In this document: positions 30,201-64,000 of the stretch, piece after piece
How positions within the stretch are numbered: position 1 is the first letter of the stretch
How the letters are laid out: every line of letters starts with the position of its first letter
From: Eubacteriales Family XIII. Incertae Sedis bacterium
GTDB lineage: Bacteria > Bacillota > Clostridia > Peptostreptococcales > Anaerovoracaceae
DNA: 64,000 nt
Assembly (NCBI GenBank): GCA_031272365.1
Contig: JAISTX010000036.1
Coordinates: 1-64,000 of the forward strand
Direction of reading: 5' to 3'
The notes under the pieces: model-generated
Databases searched by the model: none
What the model was told of the DNA's origin: nothing
What the model saw: the letters and a program-made list of their open reading frames with translations, nothing else
Translations under genes and position numbers: made by a program

Positions 30201-33089
30201 GTGCTCGGTGAGACGGGGAAGGAGACGAAGACCGTGTCCTACACGACGTTCGACACGGAGCCGGTCGACATCCCGTTCAGCGCTTTCGAAGGCCTCTTGG
30301 CGGGCAAGACGTACATCTTCCGCATCACGGAGACGGTCCCCGACCCGGTGCCGGAGGGCTGGACCTATGACGAAACGGTGTACTTCGCGGCTATTGCGGT
30401 GCCGGCCGACGCGGAAGGCGACGACGATGTGGTCGTGAGTTATTATACGAGCTACCCCGACGCGGGGGCTACGCCGATCGGCGATAGCGACCTGCCGGTG
30501 GCCTTTGTGAATGAGTTCACGCCGATGATCGCGCTGCAGGTCGACAAGGATTCGATCAAGCGCACGAGCGCGGCGTACAGCTCCTCGACGTTCGGCGCGA
30601 CGGACGAGGACATCGAGAATGTCGCGGGCATCGGCGGGCCGGACTTCGTGCAGTACCAGTACGACATCGACTTCCGCTCCGCTTCGAACGTGCCGCTTTC
30701 GGAATTCTACGTGGTGGATCCGCTTGAGGGCGTCGCGCTCGACCATATCCGTCTGGACGAGATCTGGACGCCGGTCGTGTACGGGCTGCTGCGCGACGCG
30801 GGCAAGGACTATACTTACCTGATCGAATACCGGACGAGCGCGGGCAGCGACTGGAAGCCGTGGACCGGCGGCGCGCGCGGCGACGGGTACTACGACGGGA
30901 CGCAGTCGGTGCACCTGTCCGTCAAGGACGACCTCGGGCTCGACAACGAGACCGAGTGGGTCACGGCGTTGCGGTTCTCCTTCGGCGCGGTGGACGTCGG
31001 GTTCACGAGCAAAAACTACGCGGACGCAAGCGTCAACGGGGATTACTACTCGTTTGACGACGACGGCAATTTCATCGGCATCAACCTGGACAAGCTCGGC
31101 ACGCCGAACTCGGAAGAAATCGTCCTTGTGGATGATATCGTCGACGGCTACCTGCCCCGTGCGGCGGTGGGGCCGACGTCGGCGCCTGCTACGGGCCTCG
31201 CGGCGGTGGAGCCGCTCGCGGCCGTTAGCCCGAGCGCGGAGACGCCTGCGGCCGTGATCGCGCCTTTGGACGCGAACGGATTTGGGTATGACGAGGCCAC
31301 GGGCCTCACGGACTGGTCGGATGCGTCGATCACGTCCGGGTTCACGGGCATGCCGATCACGCTGCTCGTGCACGCGGTCTCGCCGCTCGAGGATGTGCGC
31401 GGCGACGACATCGTCGGATCCGCGAGCGCCTACGGCGGCACCGGCATGTTCGGCTACGGGATCATGGACGCGGTCGTGACGCGCAACCTCTCGGCCCCGT
31501 CGCCCATCCCGACGCCGGCGCGGCCGTCGATCGTGCGCGACGACCCAGCGCCCCCGACCGTGAACGTTTCCGGCGGGGATCTCGTGCTGACGCGCGTGCG
31601 CTCTGCGGTGAACACGATCTACCGGAACGTGCCGCGCACGGGCGATACGGCATGGATCGAGATGATGGTCATCATGGCCGCGGCATCGCTGGCCCTGATG
31701 CTGCTCCTGCTGCACAGCCTGCGGCGGTCGCGGAAAAAGAGCCTCGCGGCGGCGGCGGCGAAGTCCGCGCGCAACTCGTTCTTCGCGGTCTTCCTGCTCT
31801 GCGGGATGATGGCCTGGGTGGCGGCGGCGCCGCTCTCGGTGCACGCGTCATCGGAGGCGGGCTCCGGCGCGAGCGAAAATGTGACGATTGAGTTCCTCTA
31901 CGAGGAAGGGCAGGAGAGCGAGGTCGCTATCCCGGATACGGTCTCGCGCTTCGGGCGCAACTACAAACTGGTCTCGACCTCCGACCCGGCTTTGGCGTCG
32001 ACGAAGGAGCGTACCTATACGTTCAAGCTCGAGGGCGGCGCGATCACGCAAGCCGAGCTGGAGGCGTTCGCGGCCGAGCAGGGCCTCCCGGGCGAGCTTG
32101 TGGCGAAGATCACGGGCACGGGGGCAACGGTCCCCGTGGACACGGTGCACGCCGTGGCGGTCGCCTTTGTGCCGGCGACCAATGACATCGAGGCGATCGA
32201 GCTGGTCGACACGCTCCCGGCGTCGGCGGTGGATCCGGCGCAGGAGCAGATCCCGGAGACAATCACGGGCTATACGGTGAAGAGCGCGGCGGACGGCGAC
32301 ACGGACGTGGAGATCGACCTCGTGCGCGAGCTGTCCGAGGACACGCTCAAGAAGGGCGGCATCACGACGAGCCCCGTCAAGGACCGGCCGGTGCTGACGG
32401 CGGCGCAGAAGTCCGCGAAGGACCCGACCGTCGTCTACGAGGCGACGACCTATGACACGAAGATCGTCTATCGCGGCACGGAGCAGGTCCCCGGGTGGCA
32501 AAACATCACGGTGACCTACAGCAACCCCGCGGAGACGTACAAGACGTATATCGTGAAGGCGGTCTATGAGCCGACGGATCCGCCGACGACGACGGTCACG
32601 AGCACGAGGTATGTGGATGTCGTGGTCGCGGGCGGCGGCGGCACAGGCACAGGCGGCGGCGCGGCGGCGGCCGGCACAGGCGGCGGTGCGGCGGCCGGAG
32701 GCGGCGGCGCGGCAGCCGGCGGTGGCGCGGCAGCCGGCACAGGCGGTGACGCGACAGGCGGCGACGGCGGTGTCATCATCCCCGACGACGAAGTGCCCCT
32801 CGACCCCGGCGACGGGGACGGCGGCGATGGCGCGACCAAGCCGGACACGACGATCGAGGACGAAAAACCGCCGCTCATCGACGGTGGCGATGCCATCATC
32901 GACGGCGACGGCGACGGCGGCGGCGTTGGCGGCGGCCTCAGCGGCATCTTGGCGAGCATCACCAGCTTCCTAAGCAAGCTCATCACGTGGCCGTGGATCC
33001 TTGTGCTCGCAGCGGTGGTGGCCATCATTATTGTGGCTGCCGTCGTATCGGCGCGCCGCAAGCACCGCGCGGAAACCGAGACGGAATAG
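27240..33089 (+). CDS. Giant pilin-like surface protein, apparently two secreted proteins fused
   Basis: The 1949-residue product starts with a signal peptide (1-26) and a Pro/Ala/Glu-rich stretch. A Cna-B/SpaA-like block follows (~400-640). At least three repeats resemble the streptococcal pilin isopeptide-linkage domain, near 640-780, 783-935 and 937-1095 (for example VYKKIEVLPEGGPEPDEIPA and TFTLYGYD). A DUF11-like region runs to ~1460. At ~1464-1469 is VPRTGD, then a hydrophobic segment and RRSRKK, the layout of a sortase sorting signal. Directly after it comes NSFFAVFLLCGMMAWVAAAP ending in VHA-SSEAG (~1510-1535), which looks like a second signal peptide. A second ectodomain, a Gly/Ala linker and a C-terminal membrane segment (~1918-1940) with RRKHR complete it. 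No stop codon separates the halves. Confidence 0.88.
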   Translation: MKLKKLCAIALMVAMTVVYCGVASFASESESPGSGAEEPGTETETAAPAEDPGTEGASADPASTADPATTAGEPATEADPDAPVDPDDPGAAVEPLSPEGGEAIEPLSPGDPTDVTLNVYYWINPQTRNWVNGYQHSTRPTGPGLTAELVDKDGNTHTASVVNGVATFTGVPEGTVTFKRIVATGITLANENTTDANWPDLNSTPRDYSGTPEVLEMTSDAATHSRDVWLRMTTYKYDHVDIRFTGSMQVDVDGKKYELGAQVISDNLTASVTDSTGTHNYPPSGSNWRARTDPDDQEFSSMSNDYGYGTPQFPVSLDNWLTGAEFTIGGKLRLDTDDVKGIPYYEALFEKYWNSVSGYYEVPFSGYHPEMNICTHMQGEEKYGSASGFDFKIALQDLVPYITKGKAVIEKYVWADFGMKEPFDGEGDKFEFAIFKRDANGDPVGYPNDPVTTGTVTIDDQENFGSVVSVVKNHGTITIEGLDIGQYLVYETNEGENGYSIISENGLPFTIVEKQEEQIPVTTFHNAKDATIRIKKIVSKPSGATGIPTTFYFDIFETDKEGAKVTPAIYTNIAVPAGQTVTVQDTQEKIIFGHTYIVEEKNAEVSGYKLTVTATPEGGEVEIVEGDDLVTFTNTYERIKGKIELKVKKTITTPEGGADPETVPDFTFELTQTTGADSDTKLATGAILSPNPKQVTIDGGDLLDGDETATFGEIADVAQGTYYFTIKEVVPATVPEGFVYDEVVRYVTATVNSDGTTTYSIKAGKDGTASSTGTASFENVYESLSAALKVYKKIEVLPEGGPEPDEIPAFTFTLYGYDEDASAWETEKYDLGKDADDNDNNPVSTSSQTLSDYADGLEVAFAPVTGLRTDHVYYFKIVESIPALLPAGWAFDDAPWYAVVTVDEEGAVTVEYFDTDPTEDDGEAAEKAVFTNTYQTFSAALDVKKKLALSTGGGGIGLDDIPTFEFTLEQVVKTEGEIEVVTEDDGGVLGETGKETKTVSYTTFDTEPVDIPFSAFEGLLAGKTYIFRITETVPDPVPEGWTYDETVYFAAIAVPADAEGDDDVVVSYYTSYPDAGATPIGDSDLPVAFVNEFTPMIALQVDKDSIKRTSAAYSSSTFGATDEDIENVAGIGGPDFVQYQYDIDFRSASNVPLSEFYVVDPLEGVALDHIRLDEIWTPVVYGLLRDAGKDYTYLIEYRTSAGSDWKPWTGGARGDGYYDGTQSVHLSVKDDLGLDNETEWVTALRFSFGAVDVGFTSKNYADASVNGDYYSFDDDGNFIGINLDKLGTPNSEEIVLVDDIVDGYLPRAAVGPTSAPATGLAAVEPLAAVSPSAETPAAVIAPLDANGFGYDEATGLTDWSDASITSGFTGMPITLLVHAVSPLEDVRGDDIVGSASAYGGTGMFGYGIMDAVVTRNLSAPSPIPTPARPSIVRDDPAPPTVNVSGGDLVLTRVRSAVNTIYRNVPRTGDTAWIEMMVIMAAASLALMLLLLHSLRRSRKKSLAAAAAKSARNSFFAVFLLCGMMAWVAAAPLSVHASSEAGSGASENVTIEFLYEEGQESEVAIPDTVSRFGRNYKLVSTSDPALASTKERTYTFKLEGGAITQAELEAFAAEQGLPGELVAKITGTGATVPVDTVHAVAVAFVPATNDIEAIELVDTLPASAVDPAQEQIPETITGYTVKSAADGDTDVEIDLVRELSEDTLKKGGITTSPVKDRPVLTAAQKSAKDPTVVYEATTYDTKIVYRGTEQVPGWQNITVTYSNPAETYKTYIVKAVYEPTDPPTTTVTSTRYVDVVVAGGGGTGTGGGAAAAGTGGGAAAGGGGAAAGGGAAAGTGGDATGGDGGVIIPDDEVPLDPGDGDGGDGATKPDTTIEDEKPPLIDGGDAIIDGDGDGGGVGGGLSGILASITSFLSKLITWPWILVLAAVVAIIIVAAVVSARRKHRAETETE

Positions 33090-51596: not shown

Positions 51597-51641
51597 TTTT
51601 CCCGGCTTGCACTATAAAATTGTGAAAAACCGGGGAATGTT
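51597..51641 (+). promoter_or_regulatory. Promoter region and shared leader motif of the giant adhesin gene
   Basis: TATAAA (51613-51618) is a likely -10, lying between TTTTCCCGG (51597-51605) and CCGGGGAA (51630-51637), a near-perfect inverted repeat. GAAAAACCGGGGAATGTT (51624-51641) recurs with one base less at 62743-62759 before the second adhesin gene, so this leader is conserved between the two. Confidence 0.55.
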
Positions 51642-51666
51642 GTTATTTGTTTAGGAGGAAATGGAG

Positions 51667-54600
51667 ATGTCCAATACGCGTTTTCTGTCGAAGGCGGCGG
51701 CGTTGTTGCTCGCTGTCTGTCTTGTTTTTGCGCTATGCGCACAGATGAGCGCCGGGGCCTGGGCTTCGGAGGGGGATAGCGCTTCTGAGGAAACCGCAGG
51801 CGCGGAAGCCGCGCCGGCGGAAGGCAGCAGCGGCGGCGAGGGCAGCGGCAGCAGCGCCGCCACCGGCGGTGACAGCGGCGGCAGCGGCGGCGATAGCGGC
51901 GGCGGGGATTCCGCGGGCGCCCCGGCGGAACCCGGCGGCAGCGCCGGCGCAGCGGCATCCGAAGGGGGCAGCGCCCCAGCCGAAGAGGCGTCCTCCGGGT
52001 CGTCGGCGCAGGCCGCGGCAGGCGGCAGCAGCGCGAAAGCCGCCGAATCGGCAGCGGCCGGCGCGCTGGCAGGCGGCGTCGAGGCGCTGGGCGACATCGA
52101 GCCGCTGGACGCGGTGGTCACGATAGACGGAGTCCAGTACCATCTGATGGACTATCCCTGGGACGGCCCGGGGCGCGCTGTACTCATATCGTATATGGGC
52201 GGTAACCCCTATGTCCATATCGAAAGAGAAATCCATCTTGAGGACAAGACCTATATGGTAGAAGAAATCAGCGACCACGCTTTCCAAAATACAGGCGTGG
52301 CGGAGATTGATCTGCGCGATGCTTTCCCGCTCCGCAGAATCGGCAGCTATGCCTTTGCAAACTGCGCCAGCCTGCAGCGCCTGATGCTGACAACCAATGT
52401 GCAGGATGTAGGGGAGAAAATCCTTGAGAACGCCAACTCGAACGCCGAGGTATACCTCTACGAAAGCTATAGCGACACGTATGCCTCGGTGCCGGCCTCC
52501 TGGAATCCCGCGTGGAGCGAAGGCTTCAGCGGCACGCTCAACGGCGTGCCGGTCGGCTCGACGCAGTCGAGCGGCTTTGCCTATACGGTGAAGGATGACG
52601 GCACGCTCAAGCTGGATCGTTACATCGGAGGAGACGCTGCGGAGGTCACGATCCCGGCCGAGATCGACGGCAAGACCGTCACAGAGCTCGCGGCCAATCT
52701 GTTCTATTACAACTACAATGCCTTCACGGGCAACATCACAGTCCCGGCGAGCGTGCAGATCGTGCCCTCCGGGGCGTTCAACGGTACCACGGGCGATATC
52801 TACCTGCCTTTCGCCGTGGACGCGGTTCCGGCCGGCTGGAGCGCGTACTGGGCGTCCGGCGCCGAAGGGCGGTTTTATTTCAATGGTACGCTCGTAGCAG
52901 CGATTCTGATCTATACGCTTAACAGCGACGGCGCCGGCTATACGGTTGAGGACATTTCGAACAACCCTGTCTCTGCGGAAATCCCCGCAGTCTGGAAGGG
53001 CAAACCTGTGACCGCGATCGGCGCCTACGCGTTCAACAGCCGGAGCCGCCTCACGAGCGTGACGATCCCGTCCTCGGTGACGAGCATCGGCAACCAGGCC
53101 TTCAGTGAAAGCGGGTTGACGGCGATCGACATCCCCTCTTCGGTGACGAGCATCGGCACCGGCGCGTTTTACTACTGCCGCAGCCTCGCGCAGGTGACGG
53201 GGGGCGAGGGGCTGACCTCGATCGGAAACAGCTCCTTTGGCTATACAGCCATCACGAGCTTTCCCCTCCCGGATACGATCACGACCATCGAGCCCTACGT
53301 CTTCACCAACTGCACCAACCTTGCCAGTGTGACCATCCCTGATTCGGTGACGAGCATCGGAACCTATGCGTTCTACGGGTGCTCCAACCTGGCGTCCGTG
53401 ACGCTGCCCGGGGGGCTGACCTCGATCGGGAACACCGCCTTCTGCTTCTGCACCAGCCTCACCTCCATCACGCTGCCGGCCAGCCTCACTTCGATTGGCA
53501 CCAGCGCGTTCAGCCAATCGGGGCTTACGGGCATCACGATCCCGATCGGCGTGACGACGATGGGGAGCCGTGTTTTCTACGGTTTGGACATGGACATCTA
53601 CTGCGAGGCCGCTTCCAAGCCCGCTGGCTGGGCATCCGACTGGATCAGCGGCTGCACCGGCACCGTGTACTGGGCCGGCGCGCAGTCCGGGATCACGCTT
53701 ACCTACAGCTATTCCGCGGACACGGATTCCTATACCGTGACCGGCGCTTCCGGCGAAGGGGCGGCGGCGAGTGTCCCGGCCGTCTACGATGACAACGCGC
53801 ACGGCGTACGCCCTGTCACAGCCATCGGCGCGGGCGCGTTCCAGGGCCTGTCGCGCATCACGTCCGTGACGATCGGCGCCAACGTGCAGATGATCGGCAA
53901 CCAGGCATTTCGAAATCTCACCACGCTGAAGACCGTGACCTTTGAAGAGGGCAGCGCGCTGACGAGCATCGGCGACAGCGCGTTCTACGAAGCGGGCATC
54001 ACCAGCCTCATCCTGCCGGACGGCGTGCAGAGCATCGGAACCTACGCATTCTACCGTTGCGTCAGCCTCACAGAGGTCACGCTGCCCGAAGGCTTGACCA
54101 GCGTCGGAAGTGCCGCGTTCAGCCAGATTGCGGTTACAAGCATCGACGTCCCGGGCAGCTTGGAGACCCTGCCGAGCTTCGGGACGAATCTGACGAGCAT
54201 CACGCTCCACGAAGGCCTCAAGACCATCCCTGCCTCGCTGGGCAATACGAAGATACAGAGCATCCACATCCCGGCCAGCGTGGAGTCGATCGGCTACAAC
54301 GCGTTCACGAGTTGTTTCTACCTTGAGACCGTGACATTCGCGGAGGGGAGCAACCTCGCCTCGATCGGGGACTCCGCGTTTGCGTCCTGCTCGGCGCTCA
54401 CAGAGATTTCGCTGCCGGATAGCCTGACGACGATTGGAAGGCAGGCATTTTCCGGTTCAAACGCCTTCGCGCGTTTTGATATCCCGATCGGGGTTGCGAG
54501 CGTGGGCGCCAGCGCCTTCAGCGGAGACAGCTTCGACATCTACTGCGCGGCAGCGGCGCAGCCCGCGGGCTGGGACGCGAAATGGAACAGCGGGCATACA

Positions 54601-57600
54601 GGCACCGTCTACTGGAACGGCACAGCCGGCATCGAAACCACAGAGGACGGCTACCGCTTCGTGCTGAACGCGGACGGCGCGGGCTATACGTTGGCTTTGT
54701 ACGACGGGAAGGCATTCCAAAGCCTTTCGTCCATGCAGGAGGTCACGCTCGCGATCCCCGGCAGCTTCAAGGACAAGCCCGTCACGGCCATTGCGGACGG
54801 CGCGTTCACGAGCGCCCTTCAAAGCAACCGCTACGGGCTCATCCACCTGTCCATCCCCGCGAGCGTGAAAACGATCGGTGCCTCCGCCTTCTCGGCGAAC
54901 AGCGGCGGCATCAGCTACACCTCCGGCGGCATCACCCCGCTCAGCCCCGGGGACGAGCGGGACTATTCCGGCTACACCTGGGGCGCGGTCGTATCCGTGG
55001 CCTTCGGCGAGGGCAGCGCCCTCGAGTCGATCGGCAGCTATGCGTTCGCGTCGGCGGCGATCACCGAGATTGCGTTCCCGCAGGGGCTCCGTATCATCGG
55101 TAATGATGCCTTCGAATATGCGAGCCTCGAAGGAGACCTGGACATCCCGGCCAGCGTGACGTCCATCGGCAGCGGCGCTTTCGAAGGCTGCTGGAGGTTG
55201 CAAAAGGTCACGTTGCACGAGGGGCTTGGGAGCATCGGGAGCTACGCGTTTGCGGCCTGCTACACATGGACCAGCGATCAAGGCTGGATCTATGGCCTGT
55301 CCGAGATCAACATCCCGCTCTCCGTGGAGACGATCGGAGCCTATGCCTTCAGATCGAACAAGACGACGATCTACTGCGCCGCCGCCGCCAAGCCGGACGG
55401 CTGGGCAAGCAACTGGACGGGCACATCTTTCGACGGGACGGTCATCTGGGGCGTGGGCGGTTCGCTCACCGACGCGCAGGCCGTGGCGGCGGACAGGGAC
55501 GCGCTGACCTGGGATACGATCAAGGCCGGCAACACGGCGCAGACCTCGGTGACGGGGGACTTGAGCCTGGCAGCGGCCGGCGCAAACGAGACGTCGATCG
55601 CGTGGGCGGCCAGCCCGGCCGGCTACGTCGCGGCGGACGGCCAGGTGACGCGCCCGACCTATACGCAGGGCGACCAGAGCGTCACGCTGACGGCGACGAT
55701 CACGAAGGGCGAGGCCAGCGCCACGCGCACCTTTGCCATAACAATCCTGCGCGCCGACCGCAACGACGAAGAATCCGTGGCCGGCGCGCGCGACGCCCTC
55801 ACGTGGGCCCTCATCGCGAACGGCAACGCCGCGCAAAACAACGTGACGGGGGATCTCAACCTCCTCACAGCGCACACCTACGGCACGAGCGTGTCGTGGG
55901 CGTCGAGCAAGCCGGAGTACATCGCCGGGGACGGCCAGGTGACGCGCCCGTCCTGGACGCAGGGGAGCCTGGGCGTCATCCTAACGGCGACGATCACGAA
56001 GGGCGAGGCCAGCGCGACGAAGACATTCAGCGTCACCGTGACGGCGCTGCCGATTTCCGACCAGGAGGCCGTGAGCAACGTGGCCGCCAACCGGATATCG
56101 TGGAACGCCATCCGGGGCGCGAACGCCAGCCAGGATGCCGTGACGGCCGACCTCAACCTTGCCGGCGCGACCGACCCGACGTACGGGACGACGATCACGT
56201 GGTCGTCGAGCGACGAAGCGGTGGTCGCGGCGGACGGCCAGGTGACGCGGCCGGACAAAGACACGGGCGACCTTTTCGTCACGCTGACAGCGACCGTCAC
56301 GAAGGGCGAAGCGGTAGCGACGAAGGCGCTCACCGTGAAGGTGCTCTCCGAGATCACGGACAACGCGGCGGTGCTGGAGGTCGTGACCGGCCTGTCCTGG
56401 GACACCATCAAAGGCGAAAACAACATCGAGCCGGCCGTCGCCATCTACGACCTGGTGCTGCCGACAGGCGGCGACTACGAAACGACGATCACATGGAGCA
56501 GCGACATGCCGGACGTGATCGAGGTGGACGGCACGGTGGTGCGGCCCGGCGAGGGCACGCCCACGCCGATCGTCACGCTGACGGCCATCGTGGGCAGGAA
56601 CGGGGTCGAAGCCAGAAAGACGTTCAATATCTATGTGCGGCCGGTTGATACGGCCGCGCCGGCCGTCGCGTGGATCACGCCGCAGGACGGCGCGTCCATC
56701 GGGCCATCCAGCAAGACGGTGCGCGTGCGCGTCACGGACGCGACCGCCATCGACACGATCAGCGTCCAGTACAAGGTCGGAGACGGCGGCACCTATACCG
56801 AGATCGCCGGCGCGACCGCCGTCGGCACGCGGAGCAAAGAGCTTTCGGCGGCGCTGCCGGTGGGCGATCTCTCCCACGGCGACGAAGTCTACGTGCAAAT
56901 CAGCGCGGCAGACGTGGACGGCAATGCCCTGACCGCGCATACGGTGACGTACACCGTCGACAAGCAGGTGGCCGCGCCCCTCACGGCGGAGGCCAATGTG
57001 GACAACGCCGCGTCCGATGGCTACGCGCAGATTTCCTGGACCGCGCCGGACGACGCGGACATCACGGGCTTCAGCGTCTACCAAAACATCGCGGGCAGGG
57101 GCTGGACGCTGGCAGGCCAGGTCGCAAGGCAGGCGGGTGTGACCGCGTACAGCGTGAAAAATTATTCCATCAGCAAGGAGGCGCTCTCGCACACCTTCCG
57201 TGTGGAATCCTTCGACCGCGTCGGCAATACGGCGGGGATCGAGGCCGATGCCGTCATGACGCCGAACCGGACGCAGCCCGAGGCGTACTACTACGGCGAG
57301 CGGACCGTGGAGGCGACGTTTGCGTTCACGGCCAACGCGTCGTATTCGCAGCATTACTGGCCGATCACGGCGTACAGCTTCGACTTCGGCGACGGGACGC
57401 CGGTGGTGTCCGGGGCGTCGGCGGTCGTGGAGCACACCTACGCGGAGCCGGGCGACTACACCCTGACGCTGACGGTGACGGACAGCAAGGGGCAGAGCGA
57501 TGCGAAGGAGTTTGCGATCCAGGCGGTGGCGCCGGACGCGGCCGCGAAGGTCGAGGTGACGGTGAAGGCTGCGGGCGGCGGGGCGCTGCCCGGCGTGCCG

Positions 57601-60600
57601 GTGTTCTTCGACCTCGGGTCGGAGGCGCAGGTCTACAAGACGTCGGACGGCAGTGGCAAGGCTGTCTTCAGCGGCGAGCCGGGCATCCACACGGTGGGCA
57701 GCCTCGGCACGGCCAACGACTACCTGCCGGCGGAGGCCAATGTGACGCTCGTGGCCGGCCAGGTCGCGCAGGTCACGCTGACGCTCGAGAAGGAGCCGAT
57801 CGTCGAGGGCGAGTTTGAGATCCACAAGATGACGCTCGAGGAGATCCTCGATGCGGGCATCGACGTGAGTGATCCGGAAAACCACTACATCGCGGAGATC
57901 ACCTTCTACCTCTTCTATGAGGAGCAGGTGTTCAGCGGCGGCGGCGTCATCGTCGACACGGAGTACAGAGGCGGCGGGTTTGCCGGGCCTTCGGGCGATG
58001 TGATCTACCCGCAGGTCATCGTGACGCAGCCGGGGGAGGGGGCGGAGCCGATCGTCACGGTCGCCTACCTCGAGATCCCGGCGACGGTCTCGGCGCTGAA
58101 GGACTTCTACGACGTGAAGCTGCATATCCTGAACAACGCGGACGAGGCGTACAGCCTGCTCGCGAACACGGTCACGCTGAACGTGCCCGACGGGCTCACG
58201 ATCATGGACACCCAGGTGAGCGCGGGGCAGACGGTGACGATCCCCGAGATCGCGGGGCAGAGCGAGGAGGTCGTGCGGTGGATCCTGCGCGGCGACCAGA
58301 TCGGCGAGTATGAGATCTCGGCGGACTACACCGGCACGGTGGACGTGTTCAACTGGCCGCTGTCCGCGCAGTTCCTCGCGCCGGACAAGATCGTTGTGGA
58401 GGGGCTCACGGGGCTTGAGGCGCGGCTGGATATCAGCGACATCGTGACGCACCCGTTCTACTACAACCTGTCGCTCATCAACAACAGCGACCGCGACATC
58501 TACTATCCGGATATCGCCTCGCCGCCGGTGAACGAAGAGGGCGTCGAGCTCATCCTGTATGCCTCCGAGCATTTCACGGCGGCGCAGGCGGCGTTTGCCG
58601 ATACCCTGAACACGGGCCAGGTGCTGTCAGACGAGGGGTATGCCTCGGAGCTGCCCGACGGGCTCACCGTCCTGCACCCGGGCGAGAAGATCGTGCGGCA
58701 CTACCGAATCAAAATGAACAACCTGGGGCCCGGGGTGCCAGTCGATTGGAGGCATTTCTCATTCCAAAGGTACTACGAAGGCGTCTTAAGAGGCAAGGCC
58801 AAGCTGACAAACTACTACGCCGTCTGCGAAAACGCATACGGGCTGGAGGTGACCATCTACCCGCGCGACCCATCCTGGTTCTCGGACGACTATGTCGAGC
58901 CCCCGGAGGAGGGGATGACGGACGAGGAGGCCGTGGCGGCGGATGCGGACGCGCTGACCTGGGACGCGATCCGGGGCGAAAACACGGCGCAGGATGCCGT
59001 GACGGGCGATCTGGCGCTGCCTGCGGCCGGCGAAAACGGCACGGCGGTCAGCTGGGCTTCGACCGATACGGCGGCCGTGGCGACGGACGGCACGGTGACC
59101 AGGCCCGCGGCTTCGGCCGGCGACAGCGCCGTCACGCTGACGGCGACCGTCACGAAGGGCGAGGCGTCCGCTACGAAGACGTTCGTGCTGAAGGTGAAGG
59201 CGGAGCCGCCCGTGGTGGACCCGGAAGCGGCGGTCATCACGGTGGGGACGCCCACGGGGCCCTACCGCGCGGGCGAGCAGGTGGTCGTGCCGGTGCGCAT
59301 CGAAAAGAACCCCGGGTTCATCTCGCTCTTCTTTGAAGTGGCGTACGACGAGGACGTGTTCTCCATCGCGGAGATGGACACGGCGGGCGGCGTGCTCGAC
59401 GGGACGAGCGGGCTTGACGGCGAGGGCAGCCGGTGGTTCTTCGTCTCCTTGACGCCGGCAGAGGGCGACGGGTTGCTGTTCAACATCGTCTTCGACATCG
59501 CGGAGGACGCGCCCGCGGGCGGCTACGACATCACGATCGGCCTCCTGAACGGCGACGCGGACATGTTCATAGGCTTGAACGAGGACGAGGAAGAATACAG
59601 CATCCCTGTCAGCTTCGTGGCGGGCGAAATCGAGGTGGCGGACCTCGAGACGCCGACGGCGGCGGATCTGGACTATGACCTGCCGAAGACCGTGACGTAC
59701 ACCGGCGCCGCGCAGGCGGTGGCGGTCGGCAAGAAGACGGCGGGCATCGGCGATGTCACGGTCTGGTACGCGGGCACAGGCGGGACGGTGTATGAGAAAT
59801 CCCAGACGCCTCCGGTGGACGTGGGCACGTATCAGGTGTCGGCGGATGTCGCGGACGCGCGGGCAAACGGCTACGCGGCGGCGGAGGGCATCGCGCTCGG
59901 GACGCTGACGGTGGCGAAGGCGGCGGCGCCGGTGATTACGTGGCCTGTGGCCTCGGCGATCACCTACGGCGACACGCTCGCGGACGCGGCGCTCACGGGC
60001 GGCTCGACGGAGTACGGCTCCTTTGCCTGGACGGACGACACGATCTGCCCGTCCGCGCCGGGAGGCGACTTCGAGGTGACGTTCACGCCGAGCGAGGCTA
60101 CGGAGAAAAATTATGAAACCATCACGGATTTGACGGAAGACGTGCATGTCACCGTGAACAAGGCCGGCAGCATCACGGTCACGTACCCGTCCGCTTCGGC
60201 GATCCGGTACGGGCAGACGCTCGCGGATTCGGCGCTCACGGGCGGTTCGACGGAGTACGGCACGTTCGCGTGGACGGACGGCTCGATCGCCCCGGCGGTG
60301 CCGGGCGGCAGCTACGGCGTGACGTTCACGCCGAGCGATGAGACGCTGGCAAACTACGAAGGGGTGACCAACCCGGCGGCGGACGTGGCAGTCGTTGTGG
60401 AGAAGGCGATCGCGCCCTCGATCACGTGGCCTTCGGCTTCGGCGATCACGTACGGCCAGACGATCGGGGATTCGACGCTGACGGGCGGCACCGAGGGCTA
60501 TGGCACATTCGGCTGGGCGCCCAGCGTCGACACGGACGCGAAGCCCGGGGCGGGCAGCGTGTTGGTGGACGTGGCGTTCACGCCGAGCGAGGAGACGCTT

Positions 60601-61590
60601 GCAAACTATGAGGAGATCGGCACGCGCACGCAGCCGGTCATCCTCATCGTGAACAAGGCGGCGGCGCCGGCGATCGAATGGCCTTCGGCTTCGGCGATCA
60701 CGTACGGCCAGAAGATCGGCGACGCCGAGCTGACGGGCGGCACCGAGGGCTACGGCACGTTCGGCTGGGCGGATAGCGTCAATCTCGACTGGGCGCCCGA
60801 CGCCGGGAGCTACCCGGTCCTTGTGGAGTTCACGCCGAGCGCGGGCACGCTGGCAAACTACGAGCCGATCAGCCCGCTGATCAAGGCGGTGACGCTGGTC
60901 GTGGACAAGGCGGAGGCGCCCGAGATCGAGTGGCCGGTGGCTTCGGCGATCACGTACGGGCAGGCGGTCAGCGCTTCCACGCTCTCGGGCGGCACGGAGG
61001 GCTACGGCTCCTTCGATTGGGCGCCGGGCGTCGATGTGGATGAACGGCCGGACGCGGGCACGTACAGCCTGGAAGTGGTGTTCACGCCGAGCGAGGGCAC
61101 GCTGGCAAACTACGAGGCGGTCAGCCCGCTCACGCGGGCGGTCACGCTCCTCGTGAACAAGGCGCCGGCGCCGGCCATCACATGGCCGACCGCCTCAGCG
61201 ATCAACGAGGGGCAGCCGCTGTCGGCTTCGACGCTGACGCCTGCCTCGAACGCGTACGGCACCTTCGCCTGGACGGACGGCACGATCGAGCCGGCGGCGC
61301 CGGGCGGGGCGTACGAGGTGACGTTCACGCAGACGAATGAAAACTACGAGCCGGTGACGCCGGCGGTGCAGGACGTGGATCTGATCGTGGTGGCGCTGCC
61401 CGGCGACAGCAACGGCGACGGGAAGCTCGACGCGCGCGACGCGACGATGGCGCTGCGGGCGGCCATGGGCCTCGCCACGCTGACGCCGGCGCAGTTTGCG
61501 GCGATCGACCTCGACAAGGACGGCGTCATCACGGCGGCCGACGCGACGAACGTGGCGCGCCTCGTGGCGGGCCTCGCGCCCAAATTCTGA
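51667..61590 (+). CDS. 3307-residue leucine-rich-repeat adhesin with cohesin and dockerin modules
   Basis: A signal peptide (~1-34) and a Gly/Ser/Ala-rich linker (~35-140) lead into BspA-type LRR_5 repeats (~150-1260, as in SVTIPSSVTSIGNQAFSESG). Then come four atrophied bacterial Ig (aBig_2-like) domains (~1266-1655, DALTWDTIKAGNTAQ), Ig/FN3-like modules (~1660-1860), a PKD domain (~1880-1958, FDFGDGTP), a carboxypeptidase-regulatory-like domain, an unassigned region and another aBig (~2418-2512). A type I cohesin follows (~2521-2660, KNPGFISLFFEVAYDEDVFS), a MBG-like unit, and six ~80-residue repeats (~2757-3240). A C-terminal dockerin ends it (~3246-3307) with two calcium loops, DSNGDGKLDARD and DLDKDGVITAAD. 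I chose the ATG at 51667, eight bases after GGAGG. Confidence 0.93.
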   Translation: MSNTRFLSKAAALLLAVCLVFALCAQMSAGAWASEGDSASEETAGAEAAPAEGSSGGEGSGSSAATGGDSGGSGGDSGGGDSAGAPAEPGGSAGAAASEGGSAPAEEASSGSSAQAAAGGSSAKAAESAAAGALAGGVEALGDIEPLDAVVTIDGVQYHLMDYPWDGPGRAVLISYMGGNPYVHIEREIHLEDKTYMVEEISDHAFQNTGVAEIDLRDAFPLRRIGSYAFANCASLQRLMLTTNVQDVGEKILENANSNAEVYLYESYSDTYASVPASWNPAWSEGFSGTLNGVPVGSTQSSGFAYTVKDDGTLKLDRYIGGDAAEVTIPAEIDGKTVTELAANLFYYNYNAFTGNITVPASVQIVPSGAFNGTTGDIYLPFAVDAVPAGWSAYWASGAEGRFYFNGTLVAAILIYTLNSDGAGYTVEDISNNPVSAEIPAVWKGKPVTAIGAYAFNSRSRLTSVTIPSSVTSIGNQAFSESGLTAIDIPSSVTSIGTGAFYYCRSLAQVTGGEGLTSIGNSSFGYTAITSFPLPDTITTIEPYVFTNCTNLASVTIPDSVTSIGTYAFYGCSNLASVTLPGGLTSIGNTAFCFCTSLTSITLPASLTSIGTSAFSQSGLTGITIPIGVTTMGSRVFYGLDMDIYCEAASKPAGWASDWISGCTGTVYWAGAQSGITLTYSYSADTDSYTVTGASGEGAAASVPAVYDDNAHGVRPVTAIGAGAFQGLSRITSVTIGANVQMIGNQAFRNLTTLKTVTFEEGSALTSIGDSAFYEAGITSLILPDGVQSIGTYAFYRCVSLTEVTLPEGLTSVGSAAFSQIAVTSIDVPGSLETLPSFGTNLTSITLHEGLKTIPASLGNTKIQSIHIPASVESIGYNAFTSCFYLETVTFAEGSNLASIGDSAFASCSALTEISLPDSLTTIGRQAFSGSNAFARFDIPIGVASVGASAFSGDSFDIYCAAAAQPAGWDAKWNSGHTGTVYWNGTAGIETTEDGYRFVLNADGAGYTLALYDGKAFQSLSSMQEVTLAIPGSFKDKPVTAIADGAFTSALQSNRYGLIHLSIPASVKTIGASAFSANSGGISYTSGGITPLSPGDERDYSGYTWGAVVSVAFGEGSALESIGSYAFASAAITEIAFPQGLRIIGNDAFEYASLEGDLDIPASVTSIGSGAFEGCWRLQKVTLHEGLGSIGSYAFAACYTWTSDQGWIYGLSEINIPLSVETIGAYAFRSNKTTIYCAAAAKPDGWASNWTGTSFDGTVIWGVGGSLTDAQAVAADRDALTWDTIKAGNTAQTSVTGDLSLAAAGANETSIAWAASPAGYVAADGQVTRPTYTQGDQSVTLTATITKGEASATRTFAITILRADRNDEESVAGARDALTWALIANGNAAQNNVTGDLNLLTAHTYGTSVSWASSKPEYIAGDGQVTRPSWTQGSLGVILTATITKGEASATKTFSVTVTALPISDQEAVSNVAANRISWNAIRGANASQDAVTADLNLAGATDPTYGTTITWSSSDEAVVAADGQVTRPDKDTGDLFVTLTATVTKGEAVATKALTVKVLSEITDNAAVLEVVTGLSWDTIKGENNIEPAVAIYDLVLPTGGDYETTITWSSDMPDVIEVDGTVVRPGEGTPTPIVTLTAIVGRNGVEARKTFNIYVRPVDTAAPAVAWITPQDGASIGPSSKTVRVRVTDATAIDTISVQYKVGDGGTYTEIAGATAVGTRSKELSAALPVGDLSHGDEVYVQISAADVDGNALTAHTVTYTVDKQVAAPLTAEANVDNAASDGYAQISWTAPDDADITGFSVYQNIAGRGWTLAGQVARQAGVTAYSVKNYSISKEALSHTFRVESFDRVGNTAGIEADAVMTPNRTQPEAYYYGERTVEATFAFTANASYSQHYWPITAYSFDFGDGTPVVSGASAVVEHTYAEPGDYTLTLTVTDSKGQSDAKEFAIQAVAPDAAAKVEVTVKAAGGGALPGVPVFFDLGSEAQVYKTSDGSGKAVFSGEPGIHTVGSLGTANDYLPAEANVTLVAGQVAQVTLTLEKEPIVEGEFEIHKMTLEEILDAGIDVSDPENHYIAEITFYLFYEEQVFSGGGVIVDTEYRGGGFAGPSGDVIYPQVIVTQPGEGAEPIVTVAYLEIPATVSALKDFYDVKLHILNNADEAYSLLANTVTLNVPDGLTIMDTQVSAGQTVTIPEIAGQSEEVVRWILRGDQIGEYEISADYTGTVDVFNWPLSAQFLAPDKIVVEGLTGLEARLDISDIVTHPFYYNLSLINNSDRDIYYPDIASPPVNEEGVELILYASEHFTAAQAAFADTLNTGQVLSDEGYASELPDGLTVLHPGEKIVRHYRIKMNNLGPGVPVDWRHFSFQRYYEGVLRGKAKLTNYYAVCENAYGLEVTIYPRDPSWFSDDYVEPPEEGMTDEEAVAADADALTWDAIRGENTAQDAVTGDLALPAAGENGTAVSWASTDTAAVATDGTVTRPAASAGDSAVTLTATVTKGEASATKTFVLKVKAEPPVVDPEAAVITVGTPTGPYRAGEQVVVPVRIEKNPGFISLFFEVAYDEDVFSIAEMDTAGGVLDGTSGLDGEGSRWFFVSLTPAEGDGLLFNIVFDIAEDAPAGGYDITIGLLNGDADMFIGLNEDEEEYSIPVSFVAGEIEVADLETPTAADLDYDLPKTVTYTGAAQAVAVGKKTAGIGDVTVWYAGTGGTVYEKSQTPPVDVGTYQVSADVADARANGYAAAEGIALGTLTVAKAAAPVITWPVASAITYGDTLADAALTGGSTEYGSFAWTDDTICPSAPGGDFEVTFTPSEATEKNYETITDLTEDVHVTVNKAGSITVTYPSASAIRYGQTLADSALTGGSTEYGTFAWTDGSIAPAVPGGSYGVTFTPSDETLANYEGVTNPAADVAVVVEKAIAPSITWPSASAITYGQTIGDSTLTGGTEGYGTFGWAPSVDTDAKPGAGSVLVDVAFTPSEETLANYEEIGTRTQPVILIVNKAAAPAIEWPSASAITYGQKIGDAELTGGTEGYGTFGWADSVNLDWAPDAGSYPVLVEFTPSAGTLANYEPISPLIKAVTLVVDKAEAPEIEWPVASAITYGQAVSASTLSGGTEGYGSFDWAPGVDVDERPDAGTYSLEVVFTPSEGTLANYEAVSPLTRAVTLLVNKAPAPAITWPTASAINEGQPLSASTLTPASNAYGTFAWTDGTIEPAAPGGAYEVTFTQTNENYEPVTPAVQDVDLIVVALPGDSNGDGKLDARDATMALRAAMGLATLTPAQFAAIDLDKDGVITAADATNVARLVAGLAPKF
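59937..61398 (+). repeat. Six tandem ~80-codon repeats in the giant adhesin
   Basis: Six copies of a ~240-base unit encode ITWPSASAITYGQ...FTPS...NYE...VNKA. Copies 2-5 are the most alike and the sixth has diverged. They form a stalk-like spacer before the C-terminal dockerin and are a likely site of copy-number change. Confidence 0.88.
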
Positions 61591-61645
61591 TCGGCGGAGT
61601 GGAATGGGATCAACTTGAATGAGCAGGAATAGGAAGGGCAGGGAG

Positions 61646-62665
61646 ATGAGAGGAAGGAAGAAGAGGATGGCGAGGGCGCTGCGCGTCCTTGTGGCCGCGG
61701 CGGCGTTGGCTGTCGCGGCCGGCGCGGCGCCGGTCTGCGCCTATGCGGCGGGGGATGCGGTGATCGCGGTCGGCACGGCCGGCGAGAAGGCGCCCGGCGC
61801 GGAGTTTTCGGTCCCCGTGACGATCAAGGGCAACCCCGGGTTCGCGTCGGCGGTGCTGACGGTGGACTACGCGGAGGCGGCGCTGGAGCTCGTCGACATC
61901 GACACGGCGGGCGGGATTTTGAACGGCAAGGCGACGAAGGACGTGGGCTCCGGCACCATCGGCAGCGCCTCGACGCAAAACGACAAGACCGGGGACGGCA
62001 CGCTCTTCACGCTGAAGTTCCGCGTGAAGGACGGCGCGGCGTCCGGGCGCTACGAGATCGGCGTGGGCGTCAAGGACGGCAACGTGAAAAATTTCGTGAA
62101 CGCGGACGTCAAGCCGGTCAGCGTGACGTTTGCCAAGGGCAATGTGGTGGTCGGCGCGGGCAGCGGCACGGGCAGTGGCACGGGCAGTGGTTCGGGCTCC
62201 AGCTCCAGCGGCACGGCGGGCAGTGGCACGTCGTCGTCCGGCGGGAGCACGTCCTCGTCCGGCGGCACATCGTCCTCGTCCGGCGGCACGGCTTCGTCCG
62301 GCGGCACGTCGTCTTCGTCCGGCAGTGCGTCATCATCGGGCAGCACGTCCTCGTCCGGCGGCGCGACTTCGTCCAGCGGGACATCGTCGTCCGGCGGCGC
62401 GGCGTATTCAGACGGCACGTACGCGTATGACGGCACGGAAGGCGCCGCGGCAGGCGGTGCGGCAGGCGGCGACGCATCCGCGGGCGCGCAGACGCCCGAA
62501 GGCGCGGACGCGTCCGGCGGCACGGCGGCCATCGGCGACGCGGAAACGCCGCAGGCCAGCGGCACGGCGCCCGGCATCCAGCGGTGGCTCCCATTCCTCA
62601 TAGGCGCCATAGCCGCCATAGCAGCCGTAGTGCTCATCTACCGGAGGCAGCGGGCGCAGGAATGA
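61646..62665 (+). CDS. Membrane-anchored cohesin protein
   Basis: This 339-residue protein has a signal peptide (~1-34) and one type I cohesin domain (~36-175: VIAVGTAGEKAPGAEFSVPV, with GNPGFASAVLTVDYAEAALE after). A Ser/Gly/Thr linker of more than 100 residues and a C-terminal membrane helix with a basic tail (WLPFLIGAIAAIAAVVLIYR) follow. This is the layout of a cell-surface anchoring scaffoldin. The cohesin shares the DTAGG(I/V)L segment with the cohesin in the adhesin upstream. I chose the ATG at 61646, after GGAAGGG, over 61619. It lies 55 bases after the adhesin and is probably cotranscribed. Binding to the adhesin's dockerin is an inference. Confidence 0.9.
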   Translation: MRGRKKRMARALRVLVAAAALAVAAGAAPVCAYAAGDAVIAVGTAGEKAPGAEFSVPVTIKGNPGFASAVLTVDYAEAALELVDIDTAGGILNGKATKDVGSGTIGSASTQNDKTGDGTLFTLKFRVKDGAASGRYEIGVGVKDGNVKNFVNADVKPVSVTFAKGNVVVGAGSGTGSGTGSGSGSSSSGTAGSGTSSSGGSTSSSGGTSSSSGGTASSGGTSSSSGSASSSGSTSSSGGATSSSGTSSSGGAAYSDGTYAYDGTEGAAAGGAAGGDASAGAQTPEGADASGGTAAIGDAETPQASGTAPGIQRWLPFLIGAIAAIAAVVLIYRRQRAQE

Positions 62666-62675
62666 TGCCGGCAGA

Positions 62676-62704
62676 TTGACAATCGGCGGGTTGTCCCGTA
62701 TGAT
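62676..62704 (+). promoter_or_regulatory. Promoter of the second adhesin gene
   Basis: TTGACA (62676-62681), 17 bases, TATGAT (62699-62704). A second candidate -10, TATACA at 62729-62734, sits closer to the conserved leader motif at 62743-62759. Confidence 0.75.
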
Positions 62705-62742
62705 TTGGCTATCAATGGTTGCGACTCATATACACTACTGCT

Positions 62743-62759
62743 GAAAACCGGGGAATGTT
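62743..62759 (+). promoter_or_regulatory. Leader motif shared with the giant adhesin gene
   Basis: GAAAACCGGGGAATGTT matches 51624-51641 and is followed, as there, by TAGGAGG and an ATG. It is probably part of the mRNA leader and may be a shared regulatory site. Confidence 0.6.
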
Positions 62760-62781
62760 TTTGGTATAGGAGGGTAGGGAG

Positions 62782-64000
62782 ATGTCCAATACGCGTTTTC
62801 TACCGAAGGCGGCGGCTTTACTGTTCGCTGCCTGTCTTGTTTTTGCGCTGTGCGCGCAGACGAACGCCGGGGCCTGGGCCTCGGAGGAGGGCAGCGCCCC
62901 AGCGGAGGCCGCGCCTGAGCAGGGCGGCATCGAGCCGCTGAGCAGCGGCGAGGCCGTGCTGGACGGCATCCACTACTGGCTGGAATACAACGACGAGGAT
63001 GAAGGCAACGAAGCCCCCGGCACCGCGAAGATCACGGGGTACGACGGTGGCGCCCCTGTGATCGATATCCCAGACGAGATCTCCGCCGAGGGCAGGGCTT
63101 ATACAATAACAGAAATCGCGGACCGCGCCTTCGCCGGCTCCGGCGTGAAGGAAGTGCACCTCGAAAACAGCACGATGCTCGCAAAGGTCGGCAGCGGCGC
63201 GTTCGCGGACTGCGCCAGCCTCGAGTCCCTGACGCTGGCCACGCGGATCTGGGACGTGGGCGAGAAGATCCTGGAGGGCGCCTCACAGGGCGCGCAGGTG
63301 TACGTCCTTGACGCGCAGGGGGCATACGCAAACGCCCCCGCGTCTTGGAACCCCCAGTGGCTGGAGGGCTTCAGCGGCAGTGTCAACGGAAAATCGGTCG
63401 ATGCGCCGCAGCCGGCGGACTTCTCCTACTCCGTGAAGGGGGACGGCACGATCAAGCTGGAGCGGTACGAGGGGGCGAACACGGACATCGTGATCCCGTC
63501 CGAGATCGAGGGCAAGGCGGTCACGGAGCTCGGCGGCTACCTGTTCATCTGGGTGGATGATGCTTTCACAGGGAGCATCACGGTCCCAGACAGCGTGCAG
63601 ACCGTCGCGGCCGGCGCGTTCAGCGGCACCTCCGGCGACATCTACGTGGCGTTTGAAGCGGATGCGCTCCCTGCCGGCTGGGACCCGGACTGGGCATCCG
63701 GCGCGGGCGGCAATTTTTATTTCAACGGCGAGCAAGTCACGGCGCTCCTAAATTATTCGCTCAATGCCGACGGGCTCGGCTACACGGTGACGGGCGTTTC
63801 GAACAACCCGGAGGAGGTGGCGATCCCCGCCGTCCACAAGGGCCTGCCCGTGACGGCCATCGGCGCGAACGCGTTCCAGTACAAGAGCGCCCTGGCGCAG
63901 GTGGCGATCCCGTCCTCCGTGACGGCCATCGGCCGCCACGCCTTCTCCTACAGCGGCCTGGAGTCGCTGGACATCCCGGCCTCCGTGGAGAGCATCGGCG
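62782..64000 (+). CDS. Second leucine-rich-repeat adhesin, N-terminal part
   Basis: The frame is open to the window end, so only ~406 residues are visible. The signal peptide (MSNTRFLPKAAALLFAACLV) differs from the giant adhesin's at only a few positions. A short linker and then LRR_5-type repeats follow (VTAIGANAF, SSVTAIGRHAFSYSGLESLD). The repeats keep the same order as in the giant adhesin, including the unusual PASWNP and EGFSG block near residue 190-200, so the pair arose by duplication. The start has AGGAGGG seven bases upstream. Whether it ends in a dockerin cannot be seen here. Confidence 0.92.
   Translation, partial: MSNTRFLPKAAALLFAACLVFALCAQTNAGAWASEEGSAPAEAAPEQGGIEPLSSGEAVLDGIHYWLEYNDEDEGNEAPGTAKITGYDGGAPVIDIPDEISAEGRAYTITEIADRAFAGSGVKEVHLENSTMLAKVGSGAFADCASLESLTLATRIWDVGEKILEGASQGAQVYVLDAQGAYANAPASWNPQWLEGFSGSVNGKSVDAPQPADFSYSVKGDGTIKLERYEGANTDIVIPSEIEGKAVTELGGYLFIWVDDAFTGSITVPDSVQTVAAGAFSGTSGDIYVAFEADALPAGWDPDWASGAGGNFYFNGEQVTALLNYSLNADGLGYTVTGVSNNPEEVAIPAVHKGLPVTAIGANAFQYKSALAQVAIPSSVTAIGRHAFSYSGLESLDIPASVESIG

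Follow-up and report, generated by a model that had tools for sequence, protein, structure and literature searches.

Three consecutive genes in the 64,000-nucleotide stretch analyzed here (the window; C4:1-64000 of a 2.92-Mb draft assembly with 88 contigs and 89% completeness) appear to encode a two-tier, membrane-rooted scaffold, a reading to which we assign a probability of about 0.68. In such a scaffold the dockerin of a "leaf" protein would bind the cohesin of an adaptor, and the dockerin of the adaptor would in turn bind a membrane anchor. Cohesins and dockerins are used by other bacteria to assemble fibre-digesting enzyme complexes. The role of the present modules is probably the modular surface display of LRR adhesins together with other, mostly nonenzymatic, proteins. 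We infer the pairings, their calcium dependence, the docking of leaf proteins on internal cohesins and the adhesion itself from sequence, and the label "adhesin" is a presumption taken solely from the LRR_5 family. The features of the locus are collected in Table 1.

Table 1. Features of the cohesin-dockerin locus (coordinates are window positions unless preceded by C4)
Feature	Coordinates	Strand	Evidence
Gene 1, 3309-aa LRR adaptor scaffoldin, longest frame	51661..61590	+	Pfam matches; RBS
BspA-type LRR_5 arrays, gene 1	52258..55266	+	PF13306 matches
Internal cohesin, gene 1	59230..59637	+	PF00963 above cut-off; custom profile E 7e-45
Stalk, six tandem ~82-aa beta repeats joining cohesin to dockerin, gene 1	59908..61380	+	Repeat spacing, alignment, AlphaFold2
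C-terminal type I dockerin, two calcium loops, gene 1	61399..61575	+	PF00404; alignment
Gene 2, 348-aa single-cohesin membrane anchor	61619..62665	+	Pfam Cohesin; hydropathy; sequence
Anchor cohesin, gene 2	61757..62152	+	PF00963 E 1.5e-10 whole-genome; custom profile; Foldseek
Ser/Gly-rich linker, gene 2, ~140 residues	62156..62575	+	Composition
C-terminal membrane helix and short basic tail, gene 2	62576..62662	+	Hydropathy, motif check
Promoter-like TTGACA-17-TATGAT 5' of gene 3	62676..62704	+	Consensus match; regional frequency no higher than shuffles
Gene 3, 5' part of 1530-aa LRR adaptor paralog	62782..64000 (stop at contig position 67374, beyond window)	+	Sequence, Pfam, custom profiles
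Internal cohesin, gene 3	C4:65743-66150, beyond window	+	Custom profile
Dockerin, gene 3	C4:67183-67359, beyond window	+	Pfam, custom profile

The product of gene 1 is, as judged from its sequence, a secreted protein, and its LRR_5, aBig_2, PKD_4, Cohesin and Dockerin_1 domains all lie above the Pfam cut-offs. Translation probably starts at 51667, a choice favored because an AGGAGG is located just 5' of this codon and the paralog is in agreement. The LRR_5 match (PF13306) has an E-value of 2e-148, and Dockerin_1, covering residues 3247-3300, scores 34.1 bits against a cut-off of 22.9. An alignment shows the calcium-loop residues to be intact in both loops of this dockerin and of its counterpart in gene 3. 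The initial description of gene 1, as an LRR protein ending in a two-loop type I dockerin, is thus upheld. TAL-effector matches that arose when the PDB was searched with the dockerin were set aside as short repeated stretches. One unit of the stalk, modeled by AlphaFold2 from an alignment of the six in-window repeats, is predicted to form a compact beta-rich domain (pLDDT 96.7), and a search with that single unit returned no solved relatives at E 0.001. The internal cohesin (residues 2526-2626) scores 25.4 bits in Pfam, where the cut-off is 24.1. Its presence would make gene 1 an adaptor, a protein that docks by its own dockerin and accepts a partner by its own cohesin.

Gene 2 follows gene 1 after 28 bases by its longest frame and probably starts at 61646. 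Its product begins with a signal-type N terminus, followed by one cohesin, a long Ser/Gly linker and a membrane helix, the same layout that had been proposed from the letters and that Pfam, composition and hydropathy bear out. The helix is C-terminal, and a basic tail follows it. The linker is 90% S/G/T/P/A. In the Pfam protein scan the cohesin scores 40.9 bits (cut-off 24.1; E 3e-10); the confidence of its structural model is modest (pLDDT 65), and the top Foldseek matches of the model are solved cohesins. None of the nine anchors that we inspected, gene 2 included, has an LPXTG-like motif. As the genome nevertheless encodes sortases and one LPFTG surface protein, attachment by a membrane helix looks truly unlike that of the R. 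flavefaciens anchor ScaE, discussed below. A weak 47-residue match to our two-row anchor alignment in L083, a MAG of the Clostridia recovered from the cecum of water buffalo, is not used as evidence; none of the ORFs listed there encodes a cohesin.

The third gene was correctly recognized as a paralogous LRR protein, and it too ends in a dockerin, located beyond the window. It carries LRR_5 (E 3e-110), aBig_2, an internal cohesin, a stalk shorter than that of gene 1 and a dockerin that scores 36.7 bits with PF00404 (cut-off 22.9) and is 93% identical to the gene 1 dockerin. The gene 3 internal cohesin scores 16.5 bits in Pfam, under the cut-off of 24.1, and 146 bits with a custom profile that counts this same cohesin among its own rows. 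Both LRR genes are preceded by a common upstream leader, AAAACCGGGGAATGTT. The duplication, which the sequence-only reading had placed in the N-terminal region, is real and encompasses the whole architecture, with ~52% identity between genes 1 and 3 over the N-terminal half and 59-76% over the cohesin, stalk and dockerin. The suggestion that one anchor serves several clients fits the finding of two adaptors with near-identical dockerins flanking a single anchor. Whole-genome searches with PF00963 and PF00404, proposed beforehand as a check, supported both domain types at these sites. The E-values, 1.5e-10 for the gene 2 cohesin, 1.2e-7 for the gene 1 cohesin and 6.5e-10 and 1.5e-10 for the two dockerins of the locus, exclude chance as their source. 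The internal cohesins of the two LRR proteins were absent from the earlier description of the locus.

That description had the cohesin-dockerin pair showing LRR proteins in place of enzymes. This is still the best reading, and the cassette contains no recognized glycan-degrading enzyme; what does not stand is a simple anchor-client pair, because with an internal cohesin in both LRR proteins the cassette looks two-tiered. In the arrangement that we favor, the C-terminal helix of the 348-residue anchor would fix the protein in the cytoplasmic membrane, and the Ser/Gly linker would bear one cohesin outward through the wall. Linkers of 100-140 residues, when extended, would be long enough to span a Gram-positive wall. 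With calcium bound, the C-terminal dockerin of the 3,309- or the 1,530-residue LRR adaptor would dock into the anchor cohesin, with the LRR arrays held out past the stalk of tandem beta domains, and the free internal cohesin of the adaptor would accept a leaf-class dockerin protein encoded elsewhere in the genome.

Besides the cassette at C4, the genome has three loci of this kind. A custom profile built from the domains of the locus finds 12 cohesins. Five are located on single-cohesin membrane-helix proteins, one each on contigs C4, C76 and C58 and two at C22, and the other seven are distributed over five adaptors that bear both cohesin and dockerin. The adaptors are the two LRR proteins at C4, an LRR protein at C76 (1,642 residues), an aBig_2 protein at C58 (893 residues) and a three-cohesin scaffoldin at C22 (913 residues), and the module order is cohesin, repeat stalk, dockerin in all five. 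LRR, internal cohesin and dockerin are combined in one protein in gene 1 by Pfam and, by the custom profile, in gene 3 and the C76 protein. The custom dockerin profile marks 14 places, one of them a fragment; Pfam adds a dockerin on C27, whose protein we count though it is too divergent for the custom profile, and the genome thus has ~14 dockerin genes. The dockerin of the C58 adaptor is degenerate. By these profiles nine of the dockerin proteins lack a cohesin, and these are the leaf proteins. They contain GLUG motifs, Big_3, another LRR type recognized by eye and long unassigned regions, and one contains DUF4874-DUF4832. NCBIfam supplies no useful names for the dockerin proteins, yielding just partial LRR-adhesin matches far under the cut-off.

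The long unassigned regions, present in several large leaf proteins, could conceal enzymes of unrecognized families. The locus would then belong to a disguised degradative complex, similar to a cellulosome or mucinolysome, in which the LRR proteins are accessory binders. Cohesin-dockerin mucinolysomes do occur in gut bacteria (PMC12997984). In addition, the DUF4874-DUF4832-dockerin protein, which could be enzymatic and is the sole dockerin protein with candidate enzyme-like domains, has an architecture also present in a rumen secretome (PMC7480376). Against this, Pfam scans of all the dockerin and cohesin proteins of the genome detected no domain typical of a glycoside hydrolase, a CBM or a peptidase, the C22 multi-cohesin scaffoldin being likewise free of a CBM, and GH9 is absent from the 89%-complete assembly although the same search worked in control genomes. 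The GH48 search gave no signal in the controls and is not counted as an absence. We consider a degradative complex unlikely, and membership in a cellulosome proper is rejected because dockerin-bearing glycoside hydrolases are missing.

Gene order and phylogeny bear on which modules pair. An anchor gene adjoins all five adaptor genes vs. one of the nine leaf genes, for which the chance probability is 0.003 if the loci are independent; as they are partly duplicates of one another, the figure is indicative at most. When 21 dockerins drawn from four genera are placed on a tree, the distinction between adaptor and leaf dockerins requires one change, where shuffled labels require a mean of 6.6 and none of 500 shuffles is as low; the branch dividing the two classes is itself weakly supported (61/73), owing to the shortness of the domain. 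In the cohesin tree one cluster (80/94) unites the anchor cohesins from LRR-type loci, those of C4, C76 and C58 and a fused one in G078, a genome of the same genus; the internal cohesins of the LRR adaptors form another (90/58). At the C22-type loci anchor and internal cohesins are intermixed, and the tree does not support a clean split between the two kinds over all genera.

The fused cohesin in G078 lies in an ortholog of gene 1 (44% identity over 881 residues, 49% over cohesin and stalk). There, an anchor-type cohesin that is 54% identical to the gene 2 cohesin is located ~30 residues past the dockerin, and the fusion protein has no membrane helix. Fusion of neighboring genes is a classical sign of a functional link. 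The G078 fusion would fit chain formation equally well, as dockerin and anchor-type cohesin share one polypeptide that lacks a membrane helix. Indeed, every adaptor contains both partner modules, and its dockerin might bind the internal cohesin of another adaptor to build self-assembling filaments that the anchor merely roots; the dockerin of R. flavefaciens ScaH binds its own cohesin (PMC5301203). Such filaments are improbable in our view, given that the internal cohesins of the LRR adaptors fall in a different cluster from the anchors encoded beside them and a dedicated anchor adjoins every adaptor. Moreover, filaments would leave the distinct class of leaf dockerins without a partner.

Comparison with further genomes shows that parts of the system recur. 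The C22 order, a scaffoldin with two membrane anchors, is also found in two genomes of other genera, G030 and G198; in G198 a contig end truncates it. G096 has the LRR-cohesin-stalk arrangement, and its contig ends ahead of any dockerin. By eye, the anchor-type protein in G054 seems to finish in S-layer-homology-like repeats instead. Of the 297 genomes searched from this family, 52 contain a match to PF00963 and 81 a match to PF00404, and cohesins near those of this system (custom profile, E 1e-12) are present in 13 genomes from 11 genera. These recurrences also bear on whether the modules could be nonpairing structural leftovers in LRR proteins that are secreted or bound to the wall by other means. 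The modest Pfam scores of the internal cohesins, 25 bits in gene 1 and 16.5 bits in gene 3, would suit leftovers, as would the degenerate C58 dockerin. We regard this explanation as very improbable, since the calcium loops of both locus dockerins have kept their residues and the dockerin classes, operon order and fusion recur over genera.

The closest parallels to the two-tier scaffold come from Ruminococcus and other gut bacteria. In R. flavefaciens FD-1 the dockerin of ScaI, an LRR-Coh-Doc protein, bound the sortase-attached anchor ScaE in an ELISA, more weakly than did CttA, ScaH and ScaF (PMC5301203). The resemblance lies in a protein that combines LRR with one cohesin and a dockerin and in a single-cohesin surface anchor. 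Most of the other LRR-protein dockerins of R. flavefaciens bound none of the cohesins tested (PMC5301203), which counts against the two-tier reading, and those cohesins were mostly type III whereas our profile best matches type I/II cohesins. The systems also differ in attachment, which for ScaE is by sortase through LPXTG and for gene 2-type anchors by a membrane helix. Moreover, ScaI is a minor component of a cellulosome rich in enzymes, whereas the present LRR adaptors are found in cassettes with their own anchors and almost no recognizable enzymes.

Single-cohesin proteins with a C-terminal transmembrane helix, from non-cellulolytic genomes with scaffoldins, are described in a 2024 survey (PMC11557425). 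An example is Lachnoclostridium sp. MSJ-17, which likewise has such a protein, many dockerin proteins and few fibre-degrading enzymes; the passage on genomes of this type describes neither LRR adaptors nor dedicated adaptor-anchor operons. LRR_5-dockerin and DUF4874-DUF4832-dockerin proteins of Ruminococcus sp. ERACg_42 were detected in the secretome of a rumen consortium, and both domain pairs are shared with the genome analyzed here. They are reported as cellulosomal, and the passage on them describes neither an internal cohesin nor an own anchor (PMC7480376). In the mucinolysome of Limousia the dockerins of multi-cohesin scaffoldins are predicted to bind one single-cohesin surface anchor, as we propose for our adaptors, although in that case the clients are mucin-degrading enzymes and peptidases and the anchor has an LPXTG motif (PMC12997984). 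Finally, group-4 dockerins have been suggested to aid in structuring the cell surface (PMC2930009). From the reports on ScaI and ScaE, LRR_5-dockerin proteins, transmembrane anchors and group-4 dockerins it follows that every element of the proposed system has a precedent, and the layout of an LRR-Coh-Doc protein with an anchor is that of ScaI and ScaE. In the open literature that we compared we found neither an LRR adaptor on a transmembrane rather than an LPXTG anchor nor a genome in which dedicated cassettes of adaptor and anchor recur and enzymes are almost lacking. More tentatively, and at somewhat less than even odds, the genes may represent a complete multi-tier network with a surface coat of LRR and other nonenzymatic proteins, in place of enzymes, as its output and with dedicated cognate membrane anchors, present in several genera of one family.

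To date, LRR-dockerin proteins have figured in accounts of rumen cellulosomes as odd accessory parts. Because the LRR-Coh-Doc proteins described here stand beside what appears to be their own anchor, with almost no enzymes, a candidate partner is directly testable. The cohesin-dockerin pairs could also enlarge the repertoire of protein clips available to engineers. If the proposed pairings are true, cohesin-dockerin assembly would be, besides a device for digesting fibre or mucin, a means of exchanging the surface proteins carried by a fixed root in the membrane.

The adaptor gene (gene 1) and its LRR paralog (gene 3) have a 5′ leader, AAAACCGGGGAATGTT, and the start region in common, and an upstream copy of this leader was absent from the remaining dockerin and cohesin loci examined. 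Because leader and start region are shared, the duplicated stretch includes sequence that is likely regulatory.

One unit of the gene 1 stalk was modeled with very high confidence (pLDDT 96.7), and a structural search with this model returned no relative among solved structures at E 0.001. Pfam MBG_3 matched weakly, and only on the neighboring unit. The repeat may have a fold undescribed so far.

Features noted in the source genome (G000) and in a relative of the same genus (G078)
Feature	Location	Detail
5′ leaders, genes 1 and 3	window 51626-51660 and 62744-62781	shared sequence
Stalk, gene 1	window 59908-61380	~82-aa repeats; AlphaFold2 model of one unit
Surface-type ORF	window 21968-26854	1628 aa
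Surface-type ORF	window 27240-33089	1949 aa
Locus with a large LRR surface protein (L088)	G000:C73:1-19000	3910-aa open frame
Dockerin fragment (L030)	G000:C14, 10716-10847	short frame
Dockerin and anchor-type cohesin fusion (L075)	G078:C64, aa 1857-2082	2269-aa frame

Both surface-type ORFs of the window are very large and carry Listeria-Bacteroides repeats or weak SpaA-like matches. Elsewhere in the source genome, in locus L088, an LPFTG surface protein and two sortases are encoded behind the LRR frame. The LRR proteins of this genome seem to be displayed in two ways, through sortase linkage and through dockerins. The L030 fragment, directly behind an intact dockerin gene and close to the contig end, is perhaps a broken duplicate.

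Four genomes of the family (G008, G058, G122, and G249) each have 12 to at least 21 dockerin matches. PF00963 cohesins are few or none in three of them, G008, G122, and G249; these genomes are rich in dockerins, and their cohesins are either missing or escaped detection. The G078 ortholog of gene 1 (locus L075) holds a dockerin and an anchor-type cohesin naturally fused in a single polypeptide, a ready-made single-chain object for testing the pair.
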